A DNA stretch of 64,000 nt, taken from Clostridia bacterium. Lineage in GTDB: Bacteria; Bacillota; Clostridia; Oscillospirales; CAG-272. Position numbers and translations under genes: made by a program. Of the stretch, positions 6,129-64,000 are shown in pieces. Location of the stretch: contig JAGASL010000040.1 in assembly GCA_017621755.1 (NCBI GenBank), forward strand, positions 1 to 64,000, in the 5' to 3' direction. The notes under the pieces are model-generated. The model did no database searches, had not been told where the DNA came from, and worked only from the letters and a program-made list of their open reading frames with translations. The stretch's first letter is position 1; each line of letters starts with the position of its first letter.

Positions 6129-7871
6129 ATGGATCTATTTAACGTACTCGCCCTGGTGGGCGGCCTGGCCCTGTTTCTGTTCGGCATGAACGTAATGGGT
6201 GAATCGCTTGAACGCCGTGCCGGCAGCAGCCTGCGCGGTCTGTTGGCGAAATTCACCACCAAAAGATCGGCCGGCTTTTTGACCGGTCTGGCCATTACCG
6301 CCGTCATTCAAAGCTCGTCTGCGACCACGGTCATGGTCGTTGGCTTTGTCAACTCTGGCCTGATGGCGCTGCGCCAGGCCATTAACGTGATCATGGGTGC
6401 CAACGTGGGTACCACCGTTACCGCCTGGCTGCTCAGCCTGGGCGGCATTGATGGCGATGCCCTGTGGCTTAAGCTGCTTAAGCCCACCAGCTTTACGCCG
6501 GTGCTGGCGCTGATCGGCATCGTGCTTTACATGTTCTGCAAGAGTGATAAGAAAAAGGACGTGGGCATGATCCTATTAGGCTTTGCCACACTGATGTTCG
6601 GCATGGATGCCATGTCGGATGCGGTTGCCGGGCTGAGAGACGTGCCCGCCTTCCAGCAGATGTTTATTATGTTCACCAACCCGGTGCTGGGCGTGCTGGT
6701 GGGCGCCATCTTAACGGCGATCATTCAATCCAGCTCTGCCTCTGTGGGTATTCTGCAGGCGCTGGCTACCACCGGCTCTGTCACCTACGGTGCCGCCATT
6801 CCCATCATCATGGGTCAGAACATCGGCACCTGCGTGACCGCCCTGCTCTCCTCGATCGGGGCCAACCGCAACGCCAAGCGCGCTGCGCTGGTGCACCTTT
6901 CCTTTAACGTGATCGGTACGGTTTTCTGGCTGACGATATTCTGCATCGTCAAGGCCATCTTTGCGCCGGTGCTGCTCTCGCAATCGGCCTCGCTTTTCGG
7001 CATTGCCGTGGCACACTCGATCTTCAACGTGCTGTGCACGCTGCTGCTGCTGCCCATGACCGGCTTGCTTGAAAAGCTGGTCACGGTCCTGCTGCCCGAG
7101 CCGAAGAAGGTAGAGGACAACAGTGAGCTGGACGAGCGTCTCTTCAACACCCCGGCCATCGCGCTGGAGCGCTGCCGCATCGTGGCTGACGAAATGGCCC
7201 ATTGCGCGGTAAATTGCCTGCACGGCGCCGTGCGCTGCCTGTACGATTACACGCCTGAGCTGGCCACCGAGGTGCGCGAGGGCGAGGACAAGACCGACCA
7301 TTACGAGGATATTTTAGGCACCTACCTGGTCAAGCTGAGCGCCCTGCGCATCGGCGAAAGCGATAGCGCTGAGGCAGCCATGCTGCTGAAGGTGATCGGC
7401 GATTTTGAGCGCATCTCTGACCTGGGTGTAGACCTGCTCTGCTCGGCCGAGGAGATCAGGGAAAAATCCATCATCCTGACCGATGCCGCCACGCGCGAGC
7501 TGCGCACCATGACGACCGCGGTAGAGGAGATCGTTGACCTGGCGCTTTCTGCCTTTGGCCAAAACGAGGCTGAGGCCATTGCCGCCGTAGAGCCGCTGGA
7601 GCAGGTGATCGACCGCCTGAAGGAGACCCTGCGCTCTAACCACATTGCCCGCCTGCAAAAGGGCAACTGCACCATTGAGGCCGGGTTTGTCTGGTCGGAT
7701 ATGCTGACCGCCTTAGAGCGCACGGCAGACCATTGCTCGAACGTGGCCGGCTACATGATGGAGCTGTGCAAGAAGGATATGAACCTGCATGAGGCGCTTC
7801 GCGCCATCAAGGCCGGCGCCGGCAACTTTGATGAGCGCTACGCCGCCTACGAGAAAAAATACGCAATTTGA
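6129..7871 (+). CDS. Na+/phosphate cotransporter with C-terminal PhoU-like domain
   Basis: The start is the ATG after AAAAGGAG; the frame is open upstream but has no ribosome site there. The 580-residue protein has two inverted Na/Pi-cotransporter repeats, each with the diagnostic QSSSA motif (VIQSSSATTVMVVGF and IIQSSSASVGILQAL), in about the first 340 residues with eight or more membrane helices. The last 220 residues are a helical PhoU-like cytoplasmic domain. Such proteins import phosphate with sodium; the PhoU tail is thought to sense phosphate status. It is a single-gene unit with its own terminator. Confidence 0.9.
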   Translation: MDLFNVLALVGGLALFLFGMNVMGESLERRAGSSLRGLLAKFTTKRSAGFLTGLAITAVIQSSSATTVMVVGFVNSGLMALRQAINVIMGANVGTTVTAWLLSLGGIDGDALWLKLLKPTSFTPVLALIGIVLYMFCKSDKKKDVGMILLGFATLMFGMDAMSDAVAGLRDVPAFQQMFIMFTNPVLGVLVGAILTAIIQSSSASVGILQALATTGSVTYGAAIPIIMGQNIGTCVTALLSSIGANRNAKRAALVHLSFNVIGTVFWLTIFCIVKAIFAPVLLSQSASLFGIAVAHSIFNVLCTLLLLPMTGLLEKLVTVLLPEPKKVEDNSELDERLFNTPAIALERCRIVADEMAHCAVNCLHGAVRCLYDYTPELATEVREGEDKTDHYEDILGTYLVKLSALRIGESDSAEAAMLLKVIGDFERISDLGVDLLCSAEEIREKSIILTDAATRELRTMTTAVEEIVDLALSAFGQNEAEAIAAVEPLEQVIDRLKETLRSNHIARLQKGNCTIEAGFVWSDMLTALERTADHCSNVAGYMMELCKKDMNLHEALRAIKAGAGNFDERYAAYEKKYAI

Positions 7872-9259: not shown

Positions 9260-9289
9260 TTGATTTTTCATAACTTATCGTGCTATAAT
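9260..9289 (+). promoter_or_regulatory. Promoter of the secreted repeat protein gene
   Basis: TTGATT, 18 bases, then TATAAT, about 60 bases before the ATG. Confidence 0.7.
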
Positions 9290-9349
9290 GAAAATGGATA
9301 GAACTCTCTCTATATATATTGTAGAAAAAACGCGAAAGGAATGAGAATC

Positions 9350-12300
9350 ATGCGTAACAGAATCCTATCCCTTCTTTTGGTGGCATGCATGCTGCTGGCG
9401 GCCGTGCCGGCGCTGCTGTTACCCACCACGGCGGCAGATGCAGCTGCGGCCGCAGAAATCGTTGCAGAAACAACGCTTTCAAAGACCTCAAATATGCCTA
9501 CAAAAACGACCGATGCGTTCGTTTATAACGGCAATTGGAGCGTTGGCTACAAAACGGCGGCAAACAATTTTACCGCGTACCCGACCACCATCCGCACGGA
9601 CGACTCGAACCTGATCGCCGCCTCCCCCTGGAGCGCCGCTGACGGCGGCGGCGGTATGTACATCGACCCGGACCGCCGCGGCAATCTGCTGGCTACCAAG
9701 TCGGGTAGTGCCTACCGCTATATGGTGCCCTATTACCAGGCAAAGGCAGACATTGTGATCAACGAGCTGATCTTTCAGAAATACGTAAAATCTGATGCTG
9801 AGGATAAGGCTACCGTTACCAGCGCCAATTACTCCTATTTTGCCGTCATCGTTGACGGCGTGATCGTATGGCCGAAAAACGCGACCTACGAGGATGTAGA
9901 GACCTGGTGGAACGGCGCTGAGGATGGTGACATTACCACCGGCTTTACCGCCGCCGAGAACGTTTCCGTCAGCTACGGTAGCTCGATCGAGTTCGTTGCC
10001 AGAACCACGGCAAACCGTTCGGGTGAGTATACGCGCTCGATCGCCTACCCCAATTTTACCGTGCGCATTACCGACGGCCAGCTGATCTCGCAGCACACCT
10101 CTTCGTCCATGAAGGCGGACATGAGCTACAAGGTCATGTATGGCGAAGAAGATAAGACCGGCATTGACCCGCGCCAACAGTCGAATCCTACCACGGGCTA
10201 TATCAAAAGTGCAAAGGCCTTGAAAGACGAAGGAAAGACGGATGCCGAGATTTATGCTTACGTAACCCAGGAGATCGGCAAGATCAAACTGGATTATGGC
10301 AGCTCTGCCTGGCAGCTGGGCGTGCTCAACACGGCCGACGGTGCCAAGGCCGGCATCTTTGAGCCGTTTGTACGCTGGTATGCCTTTGCCGGCCAAAACC
10401 TATCGTATTGGAAAGAAAAGGACTGGGATGGACAGTGGTACTCCACGGAGGAGCACTTCCAGAGCGGCATGACTACGTTCCTTGCCGGTGGTGTCCCCAA
10501 TGTATGGGGCTTTGGCAGTACGGCCGGTGCCGCCATGCATTCCGGCGTAACCGGTAACGTTATGGCGTGTGATAAATCTACCACCTGTGCCACGGCGTAC
10601 CAGTACACCGTTCCGCATGACGGTTATCTGGAGCTCCAGTTAGCAAGCTTTGACGACCGCGATTGCTATGCGCGTATTTGCATTGCCATTAACGGCGTTG
10701 TGATCTGGCCTGCAAATGCTAAGCTGACCGATACGGCCACCTGGTTCGCCCAGGGCAGCATTATGCAACCTGCTGAATATTTGCTTGCCGTTAATGCCGA
10801 GCTTTCTACACTGAGCAACTACGTAAAGGCCGGCTCGCACGTACAGGTTTGCGTTTCGCGTGGTAATTGGGGCAGCAATGCCGGCATTACGGTAGATCCC
10901 TGCATCAACATTTACAAGCCGGCAGATACTCTGCCTGTCTGCGAGGTCATTTTCACCAAGGCAAATACCCTTCCCTTTGAGCGCCTGCTTGCCTACGAAG
11001 GCGCACCAATGAGCGACCTGATCCAGGGTACGGTTGCCTCTATCAACGGCGTAGCCACCACCACGCTGCCTGACTACGTGACCGAGGATATGACCATCGT
11101 GATGAGCGAGATCACCTTTGCCGGCACGAGCGCCTTTGCCAATTACGCGCCGAACGCCAGCAGCCCGGTTGACGAGGATAGCAATATCATCTACAACACC
11201 TCGGGTGATCATCAATGGACGATCGGCCGTGTAGACACCACCGAAGGGTTCCATGCCTTTGCCGAGGGCAAGACCTGGGATACCTTTGACAAAATTGCTA
11301 CCAGTAGCCGAACGATTGACGATGGTAGTCTTTGGGGTGCTGCCGGCGGCGGTATGTATTACGCTGACCAGCGCTTTGCTATCCGTAACCTGACGGATAC
11401 TGATGCGCCCACGATCGTAGGTGCCCAGTATACGGCAGACCGCGACGGCCTTGTGCAGCTTGGCTTTGACACCTTGGCCGTTAACCGTGATATGAACCCC
11501 ACGCACGATGCTGCCCGTTATACGATAACAGCGGCAGACGGGGAAAAATATTACGCATACTTCGTGGTCGGCAATACGTCTACCATGTATTATTCCAAGA
11601 GCTACTCCTACACCGACTATACCAACAACTACAACGTGGTGGCGACCACTCTTGCCGATCACGGCACGATGTACACCTATGACAAGGCCACCAACACGAT
11701 GACGGCAGTTACCGATGAGGCCAAGCTGACCGAGCTGGGGGCGCTTTCGTTCAAGGCTGCCTATAGCCTGCGCAAGCTGTACGAGCGCCTGTATATCTAC
11801 CAAAACGGCGTGCAGATCTGGCCGGAAAACAACGGCACCTTTACCTATGAAGCTACCTTCACCAACTACACGACTAGTGGCGGTGCTGATGCCGGCATGA
11901 AGGCTGCCGTAGGCACCTTGCCCACTATCATCGTCAACAAGGGTGACACCATTACCTTTGGCCTGGTGGGTGAGGATGCCATGTCGAACCAGGTGTTCAT
12001 GAAGCCGACGGTAAAATACGTTACCGAGGCACCTACCGTGACCGCCGAGGTCGTGCTGAAAGAGAAGTTCAACATTGATATGGAGATCTACGCCAGCCCG
12101 CTGGCTGAGGAGAGCGGCGTATACATCAACGGTGTAAAGAATGATTACGCTGCCCTGCGTGATCTGGCAGCCAAGGAGATCTGCGAGGAATTTACCTACG
12201 CCACCTACCAGGTCATCAACGGTGTAGAGATCAAATCCTCGACCAAGACCTATACCGGCAAGCAGGTGCTGGCACAGCACCAGGCAAGCACCAATGACAG

Positions 12301-12835
12301 CGTAGTAGCGCTGGCAAACGCCACCATCCACTATGCCGAGGCTGCCGCCTCCTACTTCAAGGGTGATGCCCTTTCTGCCGAGGCAAGTGCCGCCATCGCG
12401 GCGCTGGCTGCCCCGCAGGAGGCAAGCGCTTCGATCACCGATACGATCGAGGAGCAGATCACCTTCCAGGGTGCTAATCTGCTACTGAAGGATACCATTC
12501 AGCTTAAGATCACCTTTAAGAAGGTAGCGGGTGCCGGCGATATCGCCCCCTCGCTGCAGGTAGTCAGTTCCGGCATGACGGTCAAGGGCATGTTTGACGT
12601 AACGCTGGTAGGTGACACCTACGAGGCGGTTATTGAGATCCCGATGAGCGCCTATAACGAGACACTGGAAATCAGCGTTTGGAACAACACGGAGCAGATC
12701 AGCGAAACGCTGACCTACGGCGTAGGCGTATATGCCTACCGCGTATACCAGGCAAATGCCGGTAATACCGCACTGCAGAACGTACTGAAGACCATCATCG
12801 CCTTGGGCGACAAGGCAATTGCCTATCAACCCTGA
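9350..12835 (+). CDS. Large secreted protein of three related modules, no known function
   Basis: The second ATG of the frame is preferred because AAAGGA sits nine bases before it. The product is 1,161 residues with a clear Sec signal peptide (MRNRILSLLLVACMLLA to about residue 33). Three modules of about 200-300 residues follow, each with a '[NW]..G' opening and a strand of the form NG/DG-x-x-[IV][VW]WP-x-N (VDGVIVWPKNA, INGVVIWPANA, QNGVQIWPEN). The last 260 residues form a different module ending in YAYRVYQ...IALGDKAIAYQP. The same module types occur in the giant minus-strand protein at 58551-64000, so the two are paralogues. There is no LPXTG or other anchor that I can see. A short peptide gene follows in the same transcript. 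I do not recognise a named domain; an adhesin or glycan-binding role is only a guess. Confidence 0.85.
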   Translation: MRNRILSLLLVACMLLAAVPALLLPTTAADAAAAAEIVAETTLSKTSNMPTKTTDAFVYNGNWSVGYKTAANNFTAYPTTIRTDDSNLIAASPWSAADGGGGMYIDPDRRGNLLATKSGSAYRYMVPYYQAKADIVINELIFQKYVKSDAEDKATVTSANYSYFAVIVDGVIVWPKNATYEDVETWWNGAEDGDITTGFTAAENVSVSYGSSIEFVARTTANRSGEYTRSIAYPNFTVRITDGQLISQHTSSSMKADMSYKVMYGEEDKTGIDPRQQSNPTTGYIKSAKALKDEGKTDAEIYAYVTQEIGKIKLDYGSSAWQLGVLNTADGAKAGIFEPFVRWYAFAGQNLSYWKEKDWDGQWYSTEEHFQSGMTTFLAGGVPNVWGFGSTAGAAMHSGVTGNVMACDKSTTCATAYQYTVPHDGYLELQLASFDDRDCYARICIAINGVVIWPANAKLTDTATWFAQGSIMQPAEYLLAVNAELSTLSNYVKAGSHVQVCVSRGNWGSNAGITVDPCINIYKPADTLPVCEVIFTKANTLPFERLLAYEGAPMSDLIQGTVASINGVATTTLPDYVTEDMTIVMSEITFAGTSAFANYAPNASSPVDEDSNIIYNTSGDHQWTIGRVDTTEGFHAFAEGKTWDTFDKIATSSRTIDDGSLWGAAGGGMYYADQRFAIRNLTDTDAPTIVGAQYTADRDGLVQLGFDTLAVNRDMNPTHDAARYTITAADGEKYYAYFVVGNTSTMYYSKSYSYTDYTNNYNVVATTLADHGTMYTYDKATNTMTAVTDEAKLTELGALSFKAAYSLRKLYERLYIYQNGVQIWPENNGTFTYEATFTNYTTSGGADAGMKAAVGTLPTIIVNKGDTITFGLVGEDAMSNQVFMKPTVKYVTEAPTVTAEVVLKEKFNIDMEIYASPLAEESGVYINGVKNDYAALRDLAAKEICEEFTYATYQVINGVEIKSSTKTYTGKQVLAQHQASTNDSVVALANATIHYAEAAASYFKGDALSAEASAAIAALAAPQEASASITDTIEEQITFQGANLLLKDTIQLKITFKKVAGAGDIAPSLQVVSSGMTVKGMFDVTLVGDTYEAVIEIPMSAYNETLEISVWNNTEQISETLTYGVGVYAYRVYQANAGNTALQNVLKTIIALGDKAIAYQP

Positions 12836-12853
12836 TAAGGAGGTTTACGATTT

Positions 12854-12997
12854 ATGAGAATGTATGAAGCACCGATCTGCGATCTCCATATCTTTGGCGC
12901 AAGCGACCTGCTGATGGATTCCAATGGTCTGGTCGTGGACGATCTAACCAGCATCACCAAGTCGGTTAAAAACGCATTAGAGCAGGAAAACGCTTAA
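12854..12997 (+). CDS. 47-residue YEAP/DLLM peptide, paired with the secreted protein
   Basis: A short frame starts 18 bases after the secreted protein's stop, behind a full AAGGAGG site. It begins MRMYEAPICDLHIF and continues with ASDLLMDSNG and an acidic-to-basic tail ending in EQENA. It has no signal peptide or long hydrophobic helix. A 39-residue peptide after the paralogous giant protein (58418-58537) has the same pattern (YEAP near the start, DLLM plus an acidic residue and serine about ten residues later). Same position, strong ribosome site and shared pattern make it a real gene. Function unknown. Confidence 0.8.
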   Translation: MRMYEAPICDLHIFGASDLLMDSNGLVVDDLTSITKSVKNALEQENA

Positions 12998-13012: not shown

Positions 13013-13046
13013 CCCCGCCCTGGGTCTCCCCCCGGGGCGGGTTTTT
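13013..13046 (+). terminator. Terminator after the secreted protein and peptide genes
   Basis: CCCCGCCC and GGGGCGGG arms with a 13-base loop are followed by TTTTT, 16 bases after the peptide stop codon. Confidence 0.85.
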
Positions 13047-13074
13047 CATGCCGTAGCACGGACATACTGCCGTG

Positions 13075-13347
13075 AGGGGCTTATGGGTGCGGGAGGAGCA
13101 AGCCCCTCCCCTACGAGGCGCGCCGTACACACTACCGTAGGGCGGGGGCTTGCTCCCGCCGGGGGAACAATCCCTCACCGCCTACGGCGGAGCTCCCTTG
13201 TGTAAAGGGAGCCTTTTGCCCCTACAAGGCGAGCCGCACCTATAACCGGTAGGGGAGGGGCTTGCTCCTCCCGCACCAATCTTATTCAACCTTTTATCTG
13301 TAGGGACAGGCGTCCCCGACTGTCCGCGCCAATCTTATTCAACCTTG
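13075..13347. repeat. Cluster of GC-rich intergenic repeats
   Basis: No gene is visible here. A unit of the form GGGGAGGGGCTTGCTCCTCC occurs in inverted form at 13089-13115, as a variant at 13133-13160 and in direct form at 13244-13277. A separate hairpin of GGCTCCCTT type lies at about 13189-13213. A 22-base segment containing CCAATCTTATTCAACC is present twice (13272-13293 and 13325-13346). Part of the cluster also matches 9181-9211. Confidence 0.75.
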
Positions 13348-58151: not shown

Positions 58152-58409
58152 AGAAAAAGAGAGAACATTACGGATTAAACCGATTTGTTCTCCCTTTCTG
58201 CTTTTTAGTGATATTCTTTGCTTTCGCAAAGAGTGATATTGCCCTTCGGGCAGTGATATTGTTCGGCTTCGCCTCACAGTGGTATTCTATTCGCCCTTAA
58301 AACTCGCGAAGCGAATATCACTCGGCGTAAGCCGAATATCACTGCGTAGCAATATCACTCGCCGCAGGCGAATAGAACTGGCGTGATACTCCGTTAAGAG
58401 TATCACGCC
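58152..58409. repeat. Composite multi-hairpin element D
   Basis: Between two minus-strand genes. A terminator-like stem (58156-58167 with 58186-58197) is followed by small hairpins separated by AGTGATATT and AATATCACT, and by a long-range stem (TTCTATTCGCC with GGCGAATAGAA) that competes with a local TCGCC-GCA-GGCGA hairpin. The terminal 12-bp hairpin (58380-58409, loop CGTTAA) shares its 11-bp core stem and loop with element C. Positions 58207-58322 repeat 26326-26440 in the same orientation with a few differences. The stem can terminate the peptide operon on the minus strand. Confidence 0.88.
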
Positions 58410-58417
58410 AAGGCCTA

Positions 58418-58537
58418 TCAGGTGATCTCTAACAGATCCTTAAAGCTATCTATGATGGTCTGGTTCTCATCCGATTCCATCAGCAGGTCGGCTGAGAGCA
58501 GCAGCAGCGTATATTGCGGGGCTTCATACTTTTTCAT
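58418..58537 (-). CDS. 39-residue YEAP/DLLM peptide, paired with the giant secreted protein
   Basis: The frame starts 13 bases after the stop of the giant protein, behind GAGGAGA. It reads MKKYEAPQYTLLLLSADLLM followed by ESDENQ, an acidic tail with IIDSFKDLLEIT, and a stop. It has no signal peptide. Against the 47-residue peptide at 12854-12997 the shared positions are YEAP, a leucine-rich core, the (S)ADLLM or ASDLLM stretch and then an acidic residue plus serine. The repeat of this arrangement at a second, paralogous locus supports translation. Function unknown. Confidence 0.8.
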   Translation of the reverse strand: MKKYEAPQYTLLLLSADLLMESDENQTIIDSFKDLLEIT

Positions 58538-58550
58538 ATGGCTTCTCCTC

Positions 58551-61500
58551 TCAATCAACCTGCACCGTTACGGGTGCGGAATAGATGTAAACGGTAATAT
58601 CCGTGCTGCCAAGCGTAACCGGCATACGGAACATGACGGTTGCCTTGCCTGCCGCGGTGGCGGAAAGCGTGCCGTTTGCGTAGGTTAGCGTCTCGTTCCC
58701 CTCAATGATGACCATCTCGGCCGCGCTGACGTCAACGCTTGCTTCAGTCGTATAGGTATCTGCCAGCAGCACAACATCGGTGCTGCCACCGGCCTCCAGG
58801 CTGTAGCTATCGTACATCGAATACAGGCTGCAGGGGATATCCGACATCTTATTGACATAGTTCAGGCAGAGCGACCAGGGGTTCTTGGCATAGGAGCCGT
58901 AAATGCCAACGTCGGAATCCGGCGTCCACAGGTTGGTGCTGATGCCACGGTGTGCCAGATCCTCCAGCAGGTCGTAATCGTAGAAATCGTACTTCGCGAA
59001 ATAGGCGGCGTTGGCATTGAGAGCACGGGAAACGATCGTGTCATACGAAAGCAGCGAGGTGCTGGAAACAAAGGCGGCGTGCACCGTGGGGCAGAGCTCG
59101 CGCATCTTCTTGATCATCTCGTCAGAGCCGCAGGCGACCCGGCATTTATCCCACAGCTCGTACTGCGCGATCTGCTCTGCAACGAGCTCAACGAGTTTTT
59201 CGCTGTAGGCCTTGATCTCGATCGTCAGCACGATGTCCTTATCCTTAGCCCATTCAAGCACGTCAAGGAAGGTCGGGATCGGCTGTGCCGGCGCGCCGGT
59301 ATGAACATCTACCTTATACTGCTGGATCTCGGCCAGCGTCATATTAGCAATGGTGCCGGTGCCGTTGGTGGTACCTTGAATGGTGGTATCGTGCATCAGA
59401 ACGAGCTTCTCGTCCTTGGTCAGGTGTACGTCAAACTCTACCGTCTTGGCACCCTTACTCATGGCCCAATCAAAGCCGTGAATGGTGTTGGGCTGGGTCT
59501 CGTTGCTGAACGTGCTGCCCTGGTGGCCGATGATGGGCACGTAGCGGGTCAGCGAGCCCTCGGCAAACCATTCGTCATTGCAGATACAGGCCTCTACGGC
59601 GGCGCGGTTTTCGGTCAGAATGCCACAGGCGCCGGCCGTCAGCAGGCGAACTGACTCGGTATCGCTGCTGCTTGCGGCCTCATACCACGGGATCAGATGG
59701 CGCAGGGTGCAATAGGTGGTATTTTCCATTGTTGCCAGCTCGGCCGGCAGCAGGCAGATGTAGGCGCCGGCGGTAGCGGCGCTGGCACGCATAGCGGGCA
59801 GCGTATCAGCCGTAGCGGTGCGGGCATCCCAGATCACGTACAGCTTGGGCTGCACTGCCTTCAGGGCGGCGATCTTTTCTACGTTATTCGAAAGCAGCAT
59901 CACGTCGCCATACTTGTTGGCCTCAAAATGTGCCTTCAGCGCGTCGTAGGCGTCTGCCGCGGGAGAGAATACGGGAATCACCTGGTGATCCAGGCAGCGC
60001 AGCGCCTCCTCCAGCGTTGCAAGCGGCTCGCCACTCTCATTCACCACGTACAGATCCTTGTTCAGGCGCAGCAGCGCGTGGGAGGGCGACTGCTTCAGAA
60101 TGTTGACAAGGATGGCGCGGCTATCCACGCTCTGCATAAGCGAGGGGTTAACGGCCAGGTTGCTTTCCATCTTGCGCACGTCTGCCACTTGCGTGTAATC
60201 GTAAGCGGTAACGGGGCGGTAGCTTGCGGCTGCCTGGCCAAGGGCCAGAACGGTATCTACCATGGTGTTGAGCTTCACGCCCTCGCTATCCGGCGTTTCG
60301 CTCTTATCGTATACGCGGCAGGCGTAGGCGCCTACGCTATAGGTGAGCACGTCGCTGACCAGGGTGCCGTTCTGGTATACGCCCAGCTTCAGGCCGGCAC
60401 GGTAGTTGACCATGGGCACGTCGATCAGGATCTTGAAATACTTGCCGCTTTCATCCTCGCCGCGGGAAACGAGCGGCCATTCGGTCTCTACGGCTACGCC
60501 GCTCTCGTTAAAGAGCTTCAGCGTCAGGCTGGCGGGGTCCGTAGCGGCATCAGCATCAATCAGCAGCTTCAGGCGCAGCACGTCATCCAGCAGCAGGGTG
60601 GCGCTGTTCCAATGCAGGGTAGCGCCCTCGGTCGCCTCGATGGCGGCGGCAGCGTTAAAGCTGCCATCCTTAATGGACGAGGCAGTTACCTGCAGGGCGG
60701 CCGGCAGGGCGGCGTTTGCCAGATTTTCGGTATTGTAGCCAAAGTAATTCTGCGCGGCGGCACCGTAATTGAGGGTGGCCACCACCAGGGCGCTTTGCTT
60801 GTTGGTGGTATCGATCTCCCCACCGTTGTAGACTAAGTACTGGCCAAGCAGCCCGGCAAGCGAGAGGCTGCCGGATTGATACACGTGACCGTCAAACTTA
60901 TTGGTGAAGGCGTACTCAACGGTATCGCTCATCTCCTTGGCGGCAATGCCGCTCTTCGTCACGATCACGTTATAGGAGTAATCTACGTTTCTCGTGGCAA
61001 CCGGGCTCACGGGCTGGCCGTTCAGGGTCAGCACGGTGTTTTGCAGCACGGTCTCGTTTTCGTACACGGCGTGCAGGTTCAGCGCGAAGGAGGCACCCAG
61101 CTCTAAGCTGCCCTCAAGCTCCTTCACGGCATCCGCCGAGGAATAGAAGGTGATGATGGGGTTCAGCTTGAGCGCTACGTTACCGTCTCCCTTTTCACGG
61201 ATGCACAGCTGCACCAGGTCGCCTGCCTGCGCATAAGGCAGCACGGTGGCAAGGGCGGCATTCAGATCAGCCACGCTGGTGTAGCTGGCCCAGCCGGTGG
61301 CCTTGGTCAGATCAAGATCCTTCTGCGGCCAAACGGTCTTGCCGTTGATGGCCACGGCCAGATACATGTTGGCGAGACCGGTCATCGTTGCGGCATCCTC
61401 ATCGATCTGCAGGCCAACGAGACCGCCGCCCGTAGCAGGGATCTCGTAAGCGTAGGCAAAGGTTCCGTCGGTTGCGCCGGTCTCCTTGCCCGCCAGGCGG

Positions 61501-64000
61501 AAGTAGTTCAGCGTATTGTCGGTGGCGTGCAGCACGTAGCCATCCGTCCAGGGGCTGATATTCGCATTGTTATCGACAAAGTTCTTAACGATGATCTCGT
61601 AGGTGGACTTATTCGTCGTCCAGACCGTGTTCGTAAAGGAGGTAGCGGTTAGGTTCTTATCCGTCATGGGGATGATGCAATCGATCTTTTCATAGCTGCC
61701 GTCCGCCAGCATAGCGCCCATCGACCAGCTACCGCCCCAGGTCACCTTGCCGGTGCCAAGCAGGTAGGTCTTGTAGGCTTCCTTCGCATCTGCCCCGGCA
61801 GTCAGACTGTTGGCCTTGCAATACGCATCGTAGGTCAGCGGGGTGCTACCCTTCACACGGGTAACGTCATCCAGATAAGCGACAGACTTTGCCACGTTGG
61901 TATACGCAACGGTGGGGTTGAGCGCGATACCAGCGCTCGACAGGCACGTACCGCAGAAATCAAGAGCCTTGCCGGCCTCTACATCAAAATGCAGGCCGTT
62001 CAGCGCCTCGTTCAGTGCGGTGATCGTGGAAAATCCAGTTGCCCAGGTAGACTGATCGTCCTTCTTAGCGCCCTCGGGCCAGATGATCACACCGTCATAC
62101 GCGATGTAGAAGCGCGCGGTGTTGGCAAGCACCGTGCCGTCTGCAAAGGTGGGCGTGATCTGCCCGGAGGCAGGCACCGTCCAGCGGTAGACAAAGGTGG
62201 CGCTGTTGTCAAGCGAGGAGCAGAGCGTCTTATCGCTCTTGCGATAGAGGGCGATGCCAGCCTGTAGCCAGATGCCGCCAAACGTACCGCCTACGTACTG
62301 GTCGATCATCTTTTCGTAGCCGCACCGGGTGGTGTACCAGGTGGTATTGCTCCAGGACGTGGCCGTCAAAATGTTGGCATTGCCTGTAAAGGGAATGCGG
62401 TAAGCGATCGGCTCAAAGGCGCCGTTTTCGCCGGTATAGCCGCCGATCTGCCAGTTGCCGGACTGCGTCAGCTTGCCGTTTTTCAAAAGATACTTGCGGT
62501 AAGCCTCACGCATCTCTTCGGTATCGGGCGCGCTGGCGGTCTCGCCATCGGTGCTGCCCTGGGCGGCTGCCCAGGCGCTATATACAGCGGGGAGAGTCGA
62601 ACGTGTATAGCGTCTTTCTCCCGCCGTTGCATCATCCTTGGCTAAAGCAAAGCCTTCCGTTGCGGTAGCGCTGGCGGCCGTCTCGCTCTCGTAGGTAGAA
62701 ACGATCGGGTCAAGACCGATCTTCGGGTCACCGGTGCCGTTTTCACAAATGCAGATCTGCACCTGCGCTCCCTGCTCTACCTGCTTGCGGCCAATACCCT
62801 CTAACGCTGCCTTTACCTCAGCAATGGTGGAATAATTGGCCCAGCTGCTACGGTCAGAAAGCGAAGCGCCGGCGGGGAAGATGACCGTATCGTTCACGCG
62901 CACCAAAAAGCGCATACTGGTGGGAGTTGCATAAGCAAAGCTAGTATCCTTTTTCGTATCGTAGCAAGTCTCGGAAACAGAGAGGCTGATATAGCCGCTC
63001 GCCGGAACGGTATAGACGTAGGCGCCTATGCCACTGGCATCACCGTTGCCGGGCATGCGGAGATTGACGGACTGAGTAGGATGGTAATTAAGCACGGCGC
63101 CAGTGGAACCCCAAATATTGCAATAGGGCTTATCCGCACCAAAGTATTTGTCCAGAATGCCTTGATAGCCAGAGGCTGTCGTCATCCAGCTGGTTTCGCT
63201 CCAGGCAGTTGCATCAATGGTTTGGTTTGTCATAGGAATAATGTAAGCCATCTTCTCGTAGCTGCCATCCACGATGGCACCCATCGACCAGTTGCCGCTC
63301 CAAGTGATCTTGCCGCTTTCCAGCAGATAAGCGCGATAGGCCTCGTAAGAGGTATCCGGTTCGGAGGGGCTCACATAACTCTCTACCCATGTTTTGTACG
63401 GGGTGGGAGCGGTCTCGTTTCTGGTATAGCGCTCTGCCTTCGACTTGGCGGTAAACTGGTTGGCGGTGCCGCTGGCAGCCTCGGCGCTTTCATAGGTGTA
63501 CACGATGGGGTCAAGACCCAGCTTCGGGTTGTTGCCCTCTGCCTTTTCCGCGATGCAGATCTGCACCTGGTCGCCGGCCTTGACCTGGAAGCGGTCAATG
63601 CTCTCCAGCGCGGCCTTCAGATCGCTCATGGTGGCATAGTTGCCCCAAGAGGCGCGGTTGTCAAACGTAGCGCCAGTCGGGAAAATAACGGTGCCGTTAA
63701 CGGCCACGGCCAGATACATGGCGGTGGGGGTATTAAAGGCAAACGCGGTGTCGTGAGAATCGGGATTCGTAAGACTGGCAGACAGGCTGATATAGCCGGC
63801 ACTCGGCACGGTGTAGCAGTAAGCACCCACACCGCTGGCGGCTACGTTGCCGGAGGGCGGCATACGCAGAATAATATTCGTGTCAGACGCATGGCCAATG
63901 TTGCCGCTTGCAGCAGTCGACCAGATGCCGCAATCAGACGCACCGGCCAAATATGCATCAATCATGCTGGAATAGCCGGAGGCGTTGGTCATCCAAACGT
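58551..64000 (-). CDS. Giant secreted repeat protein with GDPD domain; N-terminus beyond the window
   Basis: The frame is open to the window edge, so the true start is outside. At least 1,815 residues are visible: four or more modules of about 270 residues, each with [NS]GNWS[MI]G-like opening, VPASGYISLS-like strand, VNGTVIFP-like strand and QICI-E region, then a module shared with the C-terminus of the protein at 9350-12835 (ends GVGAYACRVYDKSE-like, ALGQAAASYRP). A glycerophosphodiester phosphodiesterase domain follows, with IIGHQGSTFSNETQPNTIHG, EFDVHLTKDEKLVLMHD and TIEIKAYSEK. The end is an Ig-like beta domain. It is presumably exported. The GDPD domain may hydrolyse teichoic-acid or lipid glycerophosphodiesters. 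Confidence 0.88.
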   Translation of the reverse strand, partial: VWMTNASGYSSMIDAYLAGASDCGIWSTAASGNIGHASDTNIILRMPPSGNVAASGVGAYCYTVPSAGYISLSASLTNPDSHDTAFAFNTPTAMYLAVAVNGTVIFPTGATFDNRASWGNYATMSDLKAALESIDRFQVKAGDQVQICIAEKAEGNNPKLGLDPIVYTYESAEAASGTANQFTAKSKAERYTRNETAPTPYKTWVESYVSPSEPDTSYEAYRAYLLESGKITWSGNWSMGAIVDGSYEKMAYIIPMTNQTIDATAWSETSWMTTASGYQGILDKYFGADKPYCNIWGSTGAVLNYHPTQSVNLRMPGNGDASGIGAYVYTVPASGYISLSVSETCYDTKKDTSFAYATPTSMRFLVRVNDTVIFPAGASLSDRSSWANYSTIAEVKAALEGIGRKQVEQGAQVQICICENGTGDPKIGLDPIVSTYESETAASATATEGFALAKDDATAGERRYTRSTLPAVYSAWAAAQGSTDGETASAPDTEEMREAYRKYLLKNGKLTQSGNWQIGGYTGENGAFEPIAYRIPFTGNANILTATSWSNTTWYTTRCGYEKMIDQYVGGTFGGIWLQAGIALYRKSDKTLCSSLDNSATFVYRWTVPASGQITPTFADGTVLANTARFYIAYDGVIIWPEGAKKDDQSTWATGFSTITALNEALNGLHFDVEAGKALDFCGTCLSSAGIALNPTVAYTNVAKSVAYLDDVTRVKGSTPLTYDAYCKANSLTAGADAKEAYKTYLLGTGKVTWGGSWSMGAMLADGSYEKIDCIIPMTDKNLTATSFTNTVWTTNKSTYEIIVKNFVDNNANISPWTDGYVLHATDNTLNYFRLAGKETGATDGTFAYAYEIPATGGGLVGLQIDEDAATMTGLANMYLAVAINGKTVWPQKDLDLTKATGWASYTSVADLNAALATVLPYAQAGDLVQLCIREKGDGNVALKLNPIITFYSSADAVKELEGSLELGASFALNLHAVYENETVLQNTVLTLNGQPVSPVATRNVDYSYNVIVTKSGIAAKEMSDTVEYAFTNKFDGHVYQSGSLSLAGLLGQYLVYNGGEIDTTNKQSALVVATLNYGAAAQNYFGYNTENLANAALPAALQVTASSIKDGSFNAAAAIEATEGATLHWNSATLLLDDVLRLKLLIDADAATDPASLTLKLFNESGVAVETEWPLVSRGEDESGKYFKILIDVPMVNYRAGLKLGVYQNGTLVSDVLTYSVGAYACRVYDKSETPDSEGVKLNTMVDTVLALGQAAASYRPVTAYDYTQVADVRKMESNLAVNPSLMQSVDSRAILVNILKQSPSHALLRLNKDLYVVNESGEPLATLEEALRCLDHQVIPVFSPAADAYDALKAHFEANKYGDVMLLSNNVEKIAALKAVQPKLYVIWDARTATADTLPAMRASAATAGAYICLLPAELATMENTTYCTLRHLIPWYEAASSSDTESVRLLTAGACGILTENRAAVEACICNDEWFAEGSLTRYVPIIGHQGSTFSNETQPNTIHGFDWAMSKGAKTVEFDVHLTKDEKLVLMHDTTIQGTTNGTGTIANMTLAEIQQYKVDVHTGAPAQPIPTFLDVLEWAKDKDIVLTIEIKAYSEKLVELVAEQIAQYELWDKCRVACGSDEMIKKMRELCPTVHAAFVSSTSLLSYDTIVSRALNANAAYFAKYDFYDYDLLEDLAHRGISTNLWTPDSDVGIYGSYAKNPWSLCLNYVNKMSDIPCSLYSMYDSYSLEAGGSTDVVLLADTYTTEASVDVSAAEMVIIEGNETLTYANGTLSATAAGKATVMFRMPVTLGSTDITVYIYSAPVTVQVD

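Follow-up and report, generated by a model that had tools for sequence, protein, structure and literature searches.

Short genes behind giant secreted proteins of a Clostridia bacterium are probable precursors of a clostridial branch of LPP-type peptides

The two short genes that follow giant secreted proteins in the DNA analysed here probably encode precursors belonging to a clostridial branch of the linear polyphosphorylated peptides (LPPs), a class of RiPPs, served by one central machinery, each peptide being made with, and perhaps acting on, its secreted partner. The window, i.e. the whole stretch of DNA analysed, comprises 64,000 nucleotides of a Clostridia bacterium (Oscillospirales, CAG-272; assembly GCA_017621755.1, contig JAGASL010000040.1, positions 1 to 64,000 of the forward strand). 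LPPs (LppA/K/B/S/N/D) were described from Bacilli; an RRE-dependent SpI peptidase cuts the leader and an HPrK-like kinase adds several phosphates to one Ser, with 1-3 precursors per cluster and no assigned role (Popov et al. 2026, PMC13381572).

Two giant-peptide pairs were found in the window, with the following features:

9260-9289, plus strand: promoter-like site 5′ of giant 1 (TTGATT-18-TATAAT, extended -10; consensus match only)
9341-12835, plus strand: giant secreted protein 1, signal peptide MRNRILSLLLVACMLLAAVPALLLP, 1164 aa from the first ATG and 1161 from the next
12837-12843, plus strand: Shine-Dalgarno sequence AAGGAGG of peptide gene 1 (direct reading)
12854-12997, plus strand: peptide gene 1, 47 codons, MRMYEAPICDLHIFGASDLLMDSNGLVVDDLTSITKSVKNALEQENA, candidate LPP-type precursor
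13014-13041, plus strand: strong terminator-like hairpin, 17 bases past the peptide 1 stop
58378-58411, minus strand: terminator-like hairpin 3′ of peptide gene 2, with a 15-pair stem (equal to L042:2379-2412)
58418-58537, minus strand: peptide gene 2, 39 codons, MKKYEAPQYTLLLLSADLLMESDENQTIIDSFKDLLEIT, candidate LPP-type precursor, candidate modified residue Ser22
58545-58549, minus strand: Shine-Dalgarno sequence AGGAG of peptide gene 2 (direct reading)
58551-63992, minus strand: window part of giant secreted protein 2, whose whole ORF of 1938 aa extends to about C19:64367

Peptide 1 carries the putative RRE-binding motif YEAPIC and its candidate modified residue is Ser23 (codon 12920-12922). 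The peptide genes start 18 and 13 bases past the stops of giants 1 and 2, respectively; an initial annotation of this DNA had given these spacings and the coordinates of both short ORFs exactly, and had correctly recognised good ribosome sites on both. Its size of 1161 residues for giant 1 is right when counted from the second ATG, but not from the first. As it proposed, the second giant is a paralogue of the first, with 30% identity over a C-terminal module (E 3e-14); structure prediction of this module from two sequences reached a mean pLDDT of only 45.5 and was set aside. Its statement that the giants hold no nameable domain applies to giant 1, for which a Pfam scan gave no domain above cut-off, but not to giant 2, where residues 1497-1694 of its portion in the window match a GDPD domain (E 4e-24). 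Since a terminator-like hairpin lies 3′ of each window peptide, each giant-peptide transcription unit probably ends with the peptide gene. Promoter-like sites, by consensus matching, were no more numerous than in shuffled sequence.

Searching the genome with one window peptide (peptide 1) retrieved four further copies and with the other (peptide 2) nine, and an HMM built from the own peptides (HMM A2) detected 15 in the genome, nearly all right behind a giant; the likeness of the two peptides is thus beyond chance. In total, about 15 secreted giants are each followed by a peptide ORF of 39-60 codons, the spacing ranging from an 8-bp overlap up to about 26 bp. In the stretches read around the matches, the large ORFs before the peptides encode an MKKRxLSLLLxxCMLLP-type signal peptide. 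On contig C13 the pairs form a tandem array, and at least two giants (L044:4472-8542 and L039:8662-13719) have no peptide behind them. The two window loci were initially described as not arising from local duplication. They do lie apart, but the C19 copy can be aligned with that of C54 across the giant C-terminus, the peptide and the terminator (685 bp, 76% DNA identity), so that this whole unit has been copied around the genome and spreads by duplication.

GC-rich palindromic repeats of the GGGAGGAGCAAGCCCCTCCC type occur 3′ of both the C19 and the C54 units (window 13060-13300 and L034 about 7230-7285). Directly 3′ of peptide gene 2 (window 58200-58380), tandem-like TGATATT(C/G) repeats with small hairpins were observed.

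No match above cut-off was found for the peptides in Pfam and NCBIfam. Short ORFs with no database family could have arisen by chance or belong to a conserved 3′ UTR, and so not be genes. However, the check for selection called for by the initial annotation gave dN/dS values of 0.07 for the C19/C54 pair, 0.04 and 0.21 for C13 copies and 0.11 for L246 copies, and the excess of synonymous changes was significant in all three paralogue pairs tested (p = 6e-6, 7e-4 and 1e-4). With strong ribosome sites and a 20-residue motif common to 33 of 147 genomes of the order as well, we regard the possibility that these are not genes as negligible. The claim of a conserved protein-peptide pair under selection is strongly supported, and the pairing also holds in other families.

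The KKYxxPx(h) start, which we took to resemble the leader motif of discrete RREs in lasso pathways, was the starting lead for the tests. YxxP is the leader element to which discrete PqqD-like RREs (RiPP recognition elements) bind. In the own genome the peptides share the ungapped motif M..Y..P.(h)E(h)..F.(A/T).D(V/L)(I/L)(T/M).S. When 83 peptides were counted with positions numbered from the Tyr, the leader part consisted of Y in 79, P at +3 in 76, and hydrophobic residues at +5 (in most), +7 and +8. It is followed by F or another hydrophobic residue at +10 (78/83), A or T at +12 (45/83) and D at +14 (70/83), then V, I or L at +15, I, L or M at +16 and T or M at +17, and the conserved part ends with S at +19 (65/83). 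This Ser is missing in about a fifth of the peptides, and some own peptides have Thr at the position. Beyond +19 the peptides have a variable, acidic tail, with a mean charge of -5.4 after +12, and most are 30-60 aa long. The sequences suggest two possible cleavage points, after Y+12 or around +16/+17. No solved peptide in the PDB matches the motif. One family member (L199:5756-6115) extends past the motif into a long run of (N/D)ES repeats and might serve as a Ser substrate at several sites.

The pairing with secreted proteins extends well beyond the own genome. The 83 peptides came from 154 stretches, and an upstream ORF was readable for 66 of them. Under a home-made signal-peptide rule, 53 of these upstream proteins (80%) were signal-peptide-like (p = 3e-23); among 1389 background genes, the only standard by which the rule was judged, the share was 21%. 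The median gap was 20 bp and the median length of the partner 839 aa. No domain common to the partner proteins was found; instead they carry InlB, Big_2, GLUG or LRR repeats, subtilase, GDPD, calcineurin-like phosphoesterase, GDSL lipase and other domains. Examination of 56 partners for wall anchors revealed one LPXTG-like motif and zero C-terminal membrane segments, and no fused peptide-giant form was present among 3512 long ORFs. Phosphoesterase or esterase domains (GDPD, calcineurin-like, GDSL, Exo_endo_phos) were seen in peptide-paired giants of C19, C46, C36 (L035, L043) and L177, which may be coincidence.

A modified peptide was one of several options listed in the initial annotation, which named no mechanism; the others, a secretion factor, a regulator or a surface partner, may describe roles of the mature peptide. 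The modified-peptide option is favoured by enzymes encoded outside the window: the own genome has one pair of HPrK-like kinase and RRE, an SpI/SipW-like peptidase and an NTP transferase, that is, four of the five LPP core proteins, on three contigs and mostly away from the peptide genes. The kinase (235 aa, L052:8134-8841) directly precedes the gene for the PqqD-like RRE (C46:83.9 kb), which is the only one over the family cut-off (E 1e-18). The peptidase (C13:80258-80584, E 1.4e-33) lies on the same contig as the tandem array of pairs, some 10 kb away, and the NTP transferase (NTP_transf_5, PF14907; C12:1899-2603, E 2.6e-48) adjoins two giants. No dedicated exporter was identified in the own genome.

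Alignment of 15 HPrK-like kinases showed an invariant H83, a Walker A motif G.GK.T and the sequence N.DKP, which reads NGDKP in the own kinase and NDDKP in most relatives; we take the His, the Walker A motif and the Asp-Asp to correspond to the catalytic residues of HPrK. No relative of the kinase profile was found in the PDB at E <= 0.1. HprK-related kinases A/B and ScmC (TIGR04352, TIGR04355, TIGR04249) matched at E 2e-7 to 4e-4, far below the curated cut-offs, and the kinase was not assigned to them; these systems share with it a weak kinase similarity and a PqqD partner. In the peptidase family Ser35, His75 and Asp90 are invariant, in keeping with the Ser-His-Asp of SpI/SipW-like leader peptidases, Asp90 being a candidate for the catalytic Asp, and the family matches the SEC11-type signal peptidase SEC11C. 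In the crystal structure of LppB, N33 and D70 fix the Pro and Tyr of the leader (PMC13381572). Alignment of the RRE family with LppB (A7 alignment, 9x8z_B) revealed counterparts of N33, D70, Y60 and F74, the family residues N35 and D72 being nearly invariant and Y62 invariant. Because the Tyr/Pro-binding residues are kept, the RRE is predicted to bind Tyr-type rather than Trp-type leaders. Profile scores against the TbiB1, TfuB1, PbaB1 and LppB chains did not single out LppB.

To follow the machinery in relatives, 80 named kinase loci from clostridial and other genomes were gathered with the kinase alignment. Within 4.5 kb of these kinases an RRE recurred in 51 loci, an SpI peptidase in 39 and an ABC transporter in 17, with an S24/S26-type peptidase and the transporter after the kinase and RRE, and in some (e.g. 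L172 and L155) an NTP-transferase-like protein. Most of the 80 loci have no peptide adjoining the kinase. Contiguous runs of secreted protein, peptide and cassette were found in L114, L172, L155 (Eubacterium barkeri), L188, L205 and L199. In L114, L172 and L155 the secreted protein, of 2798 aa in E. barkeri, is followed by the peptide and then by the kinase, RRE, SpI and ABC genes in varying order. For a linkage test, 12,730 short ORFs from the 80 loci were searched with an HMM trained on own peptides only, all of which lie away from the own kinase. Ten of the 15 matches at E<0.05 were located on the kinase strand and no more than 1 kb upstream, against a background of 3% (p = 2e-12).

Co-occurrence across the 147 genomes of the order points the same way. 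With the refined HMM A5, the kinase was present in 30 of 33 peptide genomes and in 10 of 114 others (p = 2e-19), and by genus in 25 of 27 with the peptide and 6 of 59 without (p = 7e-14), a count that corrects for kinship only partly. Because HMM A5 was trained in part on kinase-linked peptides, the own-only HMM provides the cleaner test; it gave the kinase in 24 of 26 peptide genomes and 16 of 121 others (p = 7e-15). The three peptide genomes without a kinase are draft assemblies, and ten kinase genomes had no detected peptide. All 12 named kinase genomes examined held peptides, seven of them outside the HMM training.

These data bear on the possibility that the peptide is an ordinary small protein, not a RiPP, acting in trans with the giant as a chaperone, inhibitor, immunity protein or regulator, and that co-occurrence with the kinase reflects ancestry. 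The tight and almost universal association with secreted proteins and the distance of the peptides from the cassette in the own genome and others would fit such a protein. However, it does not account for the linkage or for the contiguous loci in several genomes, co-occurrence persists by genus, and the partners lack the common domain that a chaperone or inhibitor dedicated to them would normally require. We therefore consider it quite improbable.

The likeness to LPPs lies in the short precursors with an N-terminal YxxPx(h) leader, a conserved Ser closing the conserved part and a variable tail, and in the HPrK-like kinase, the discrete RRE with its Tyr/Pro-binding residues, the archaeal-type/SipW-like SpI peptidase and the NTP transferase; no cyclase was found. 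LPP clusters have an MsbA-like exporter, for which the ABC transporter near the kinase in 17 of the 80 loci is a candidate counterpart. The peptides have the form of an LPP precursor, 35-200 aa with an N-terminal YxxPx(hydrophobic) segment, Y being present in 79/83 and P in 76/83. The published motif is YxxPxVLxHQxIxFETxxS (PMC13381572). By comparison, the clostridial peptides lack the HQ, their F falls three positions earlier (Y+10 against Y+13) and their conserved Ser one position later (Y+19 against Y+18). Since the published motif is not matched, they are filed as a variant and not as plain LPP members. Unlike LPP precursors, they number up to about 15 per genome and are dispersed outside the cassette, each behind a secreted protein, with no noted link to capsule loci.

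Paeninodin-type lasso clusters (PadeA/K/B1, PbaB1) share the HPrK-like kinase, a PqqD-like RRE, an NTP transferase and a [YW]xxP leader, and the peptides could accordingly be lasso precursors with the same YxxP leader, the core being cyclised by a B2 protease and the macrolactam synthetase C. This is very unlikely. In the own genome the best match to the lasso B2 family PF13471 was partial and under cut-off, and no recurrent macrolactam synthetase or B2 cluster was found within 4.5 kb of the 80 kinases. Furthermore, the leader has Tyr where that of paeninodin has Trp, and the RRE has the LPP-type Asn and Asp where PbaB1 has Gly42 and Gln79.

For the favoured LPP-type reading, we infer by homology with the Bacilli pathway a route of RRE binding, Ser phosphorylation, leader cleavage and export. 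The N-terminal YxxPx(h) segment would be bound by the PqqD-like RRE, and the neighbouring HPrK-like kinase would phosphorylate the conserved Ser at Y+19; a substrate with the change S3T was not phosphorylated by LppK (PMC13381572). The SpI/SipW-like peptidase would cut off the leader, either in the region of F-x-(A/T) at Y+12 or immediately ahead of T-x-S, the NTP transferase may decorate the phosphate, and the short acidic core would leave the cell through an ABC transporter. Some 15 precursors dispersed through the genome would share one central machinery, and the position of the precursor as last gene of a unit with the giant implies that peptide and protein are made together. In the least certain and frankly speculative step, the mature peptide may act extracellularly on or with its partner through binding, display, envelope retention or protection.

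RiPPs are often antimicrobials or signals, and the patchy gain and loss of LPPs has been taken as conflict-driven (PMC13381572). The peptides might accordingly be LPP-type precursors of antimicrobial or signalling products, with the secreted neighbour only co-expressed for convenience. Fifteen precursors, each with a different giant, in units that hold no immunity gene or sensor pair, would be unusual for a bacteriocin or pheromone, and we consider this unlikely.

Sortase/LPXTG and exosortase/PEP-CTERM sorting likewise use one processing machinery for many scattered secreted clients. In contrast to these systems, taken here as an analogy, the common element in the clostridial units is a separate ORF and not a C-terminal domain. 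A bolder extension of the LPP-type reading, which we put forward only tentatively and rate as rather unlikely, is that the peptide is a detached tag: each giant would be retained, displayed or protected at the envelope by its own co-translated LPP peptide, centrally phosphorylated, cleaved and perhaps glycosylated, which would replace a C-terminal sorting domain. If so, LPPs would be a general accessory of surface proteins and exoproteins in gut Clostridia.

The LPP class has been known since 2026. Apart from the LPP paper, the literature searched for a clostridial version yielded only reviews on lasso peptides, and by that measure the motif variant, the scale and the dispersed layout of one precursor per secreted protein appear to be new. 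Short KKYExP...DVITTS ORFs recur in gut and rumen Clostridia with no family name, and the link to kinase, RRE and peptidase gives them a likely biochemistry. About 15 precursors in one genome, each tied to a secreted protein, offer a direct and testable lead on the purpose of LPPs. RiPP finders restricted to the surroundings of modifying enzymes would miss most of these precursors.

Some genes in or next to the cassettes were also recorded. After the own kinase-RRE pair, where relatives have the peptidase, there is a 192-aa membrane protein with no Pfam match over cut-off (L052:9126-9704). In L172 a pair resembling the AbiEi/AbiEii toxin-antitoxin system by eye (L172:10950-12442) is located between the kinase and RRE genes of an otherwise complete cassette. 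In two genomes (L120:8654-11199 and L123:8314-10309) the genes after the kinase-RRE pair encode proteins that by eye resemble regulators of capsule chain length and an NTP transferase, which recalls the capsule link of the LPPs of Bacilli.
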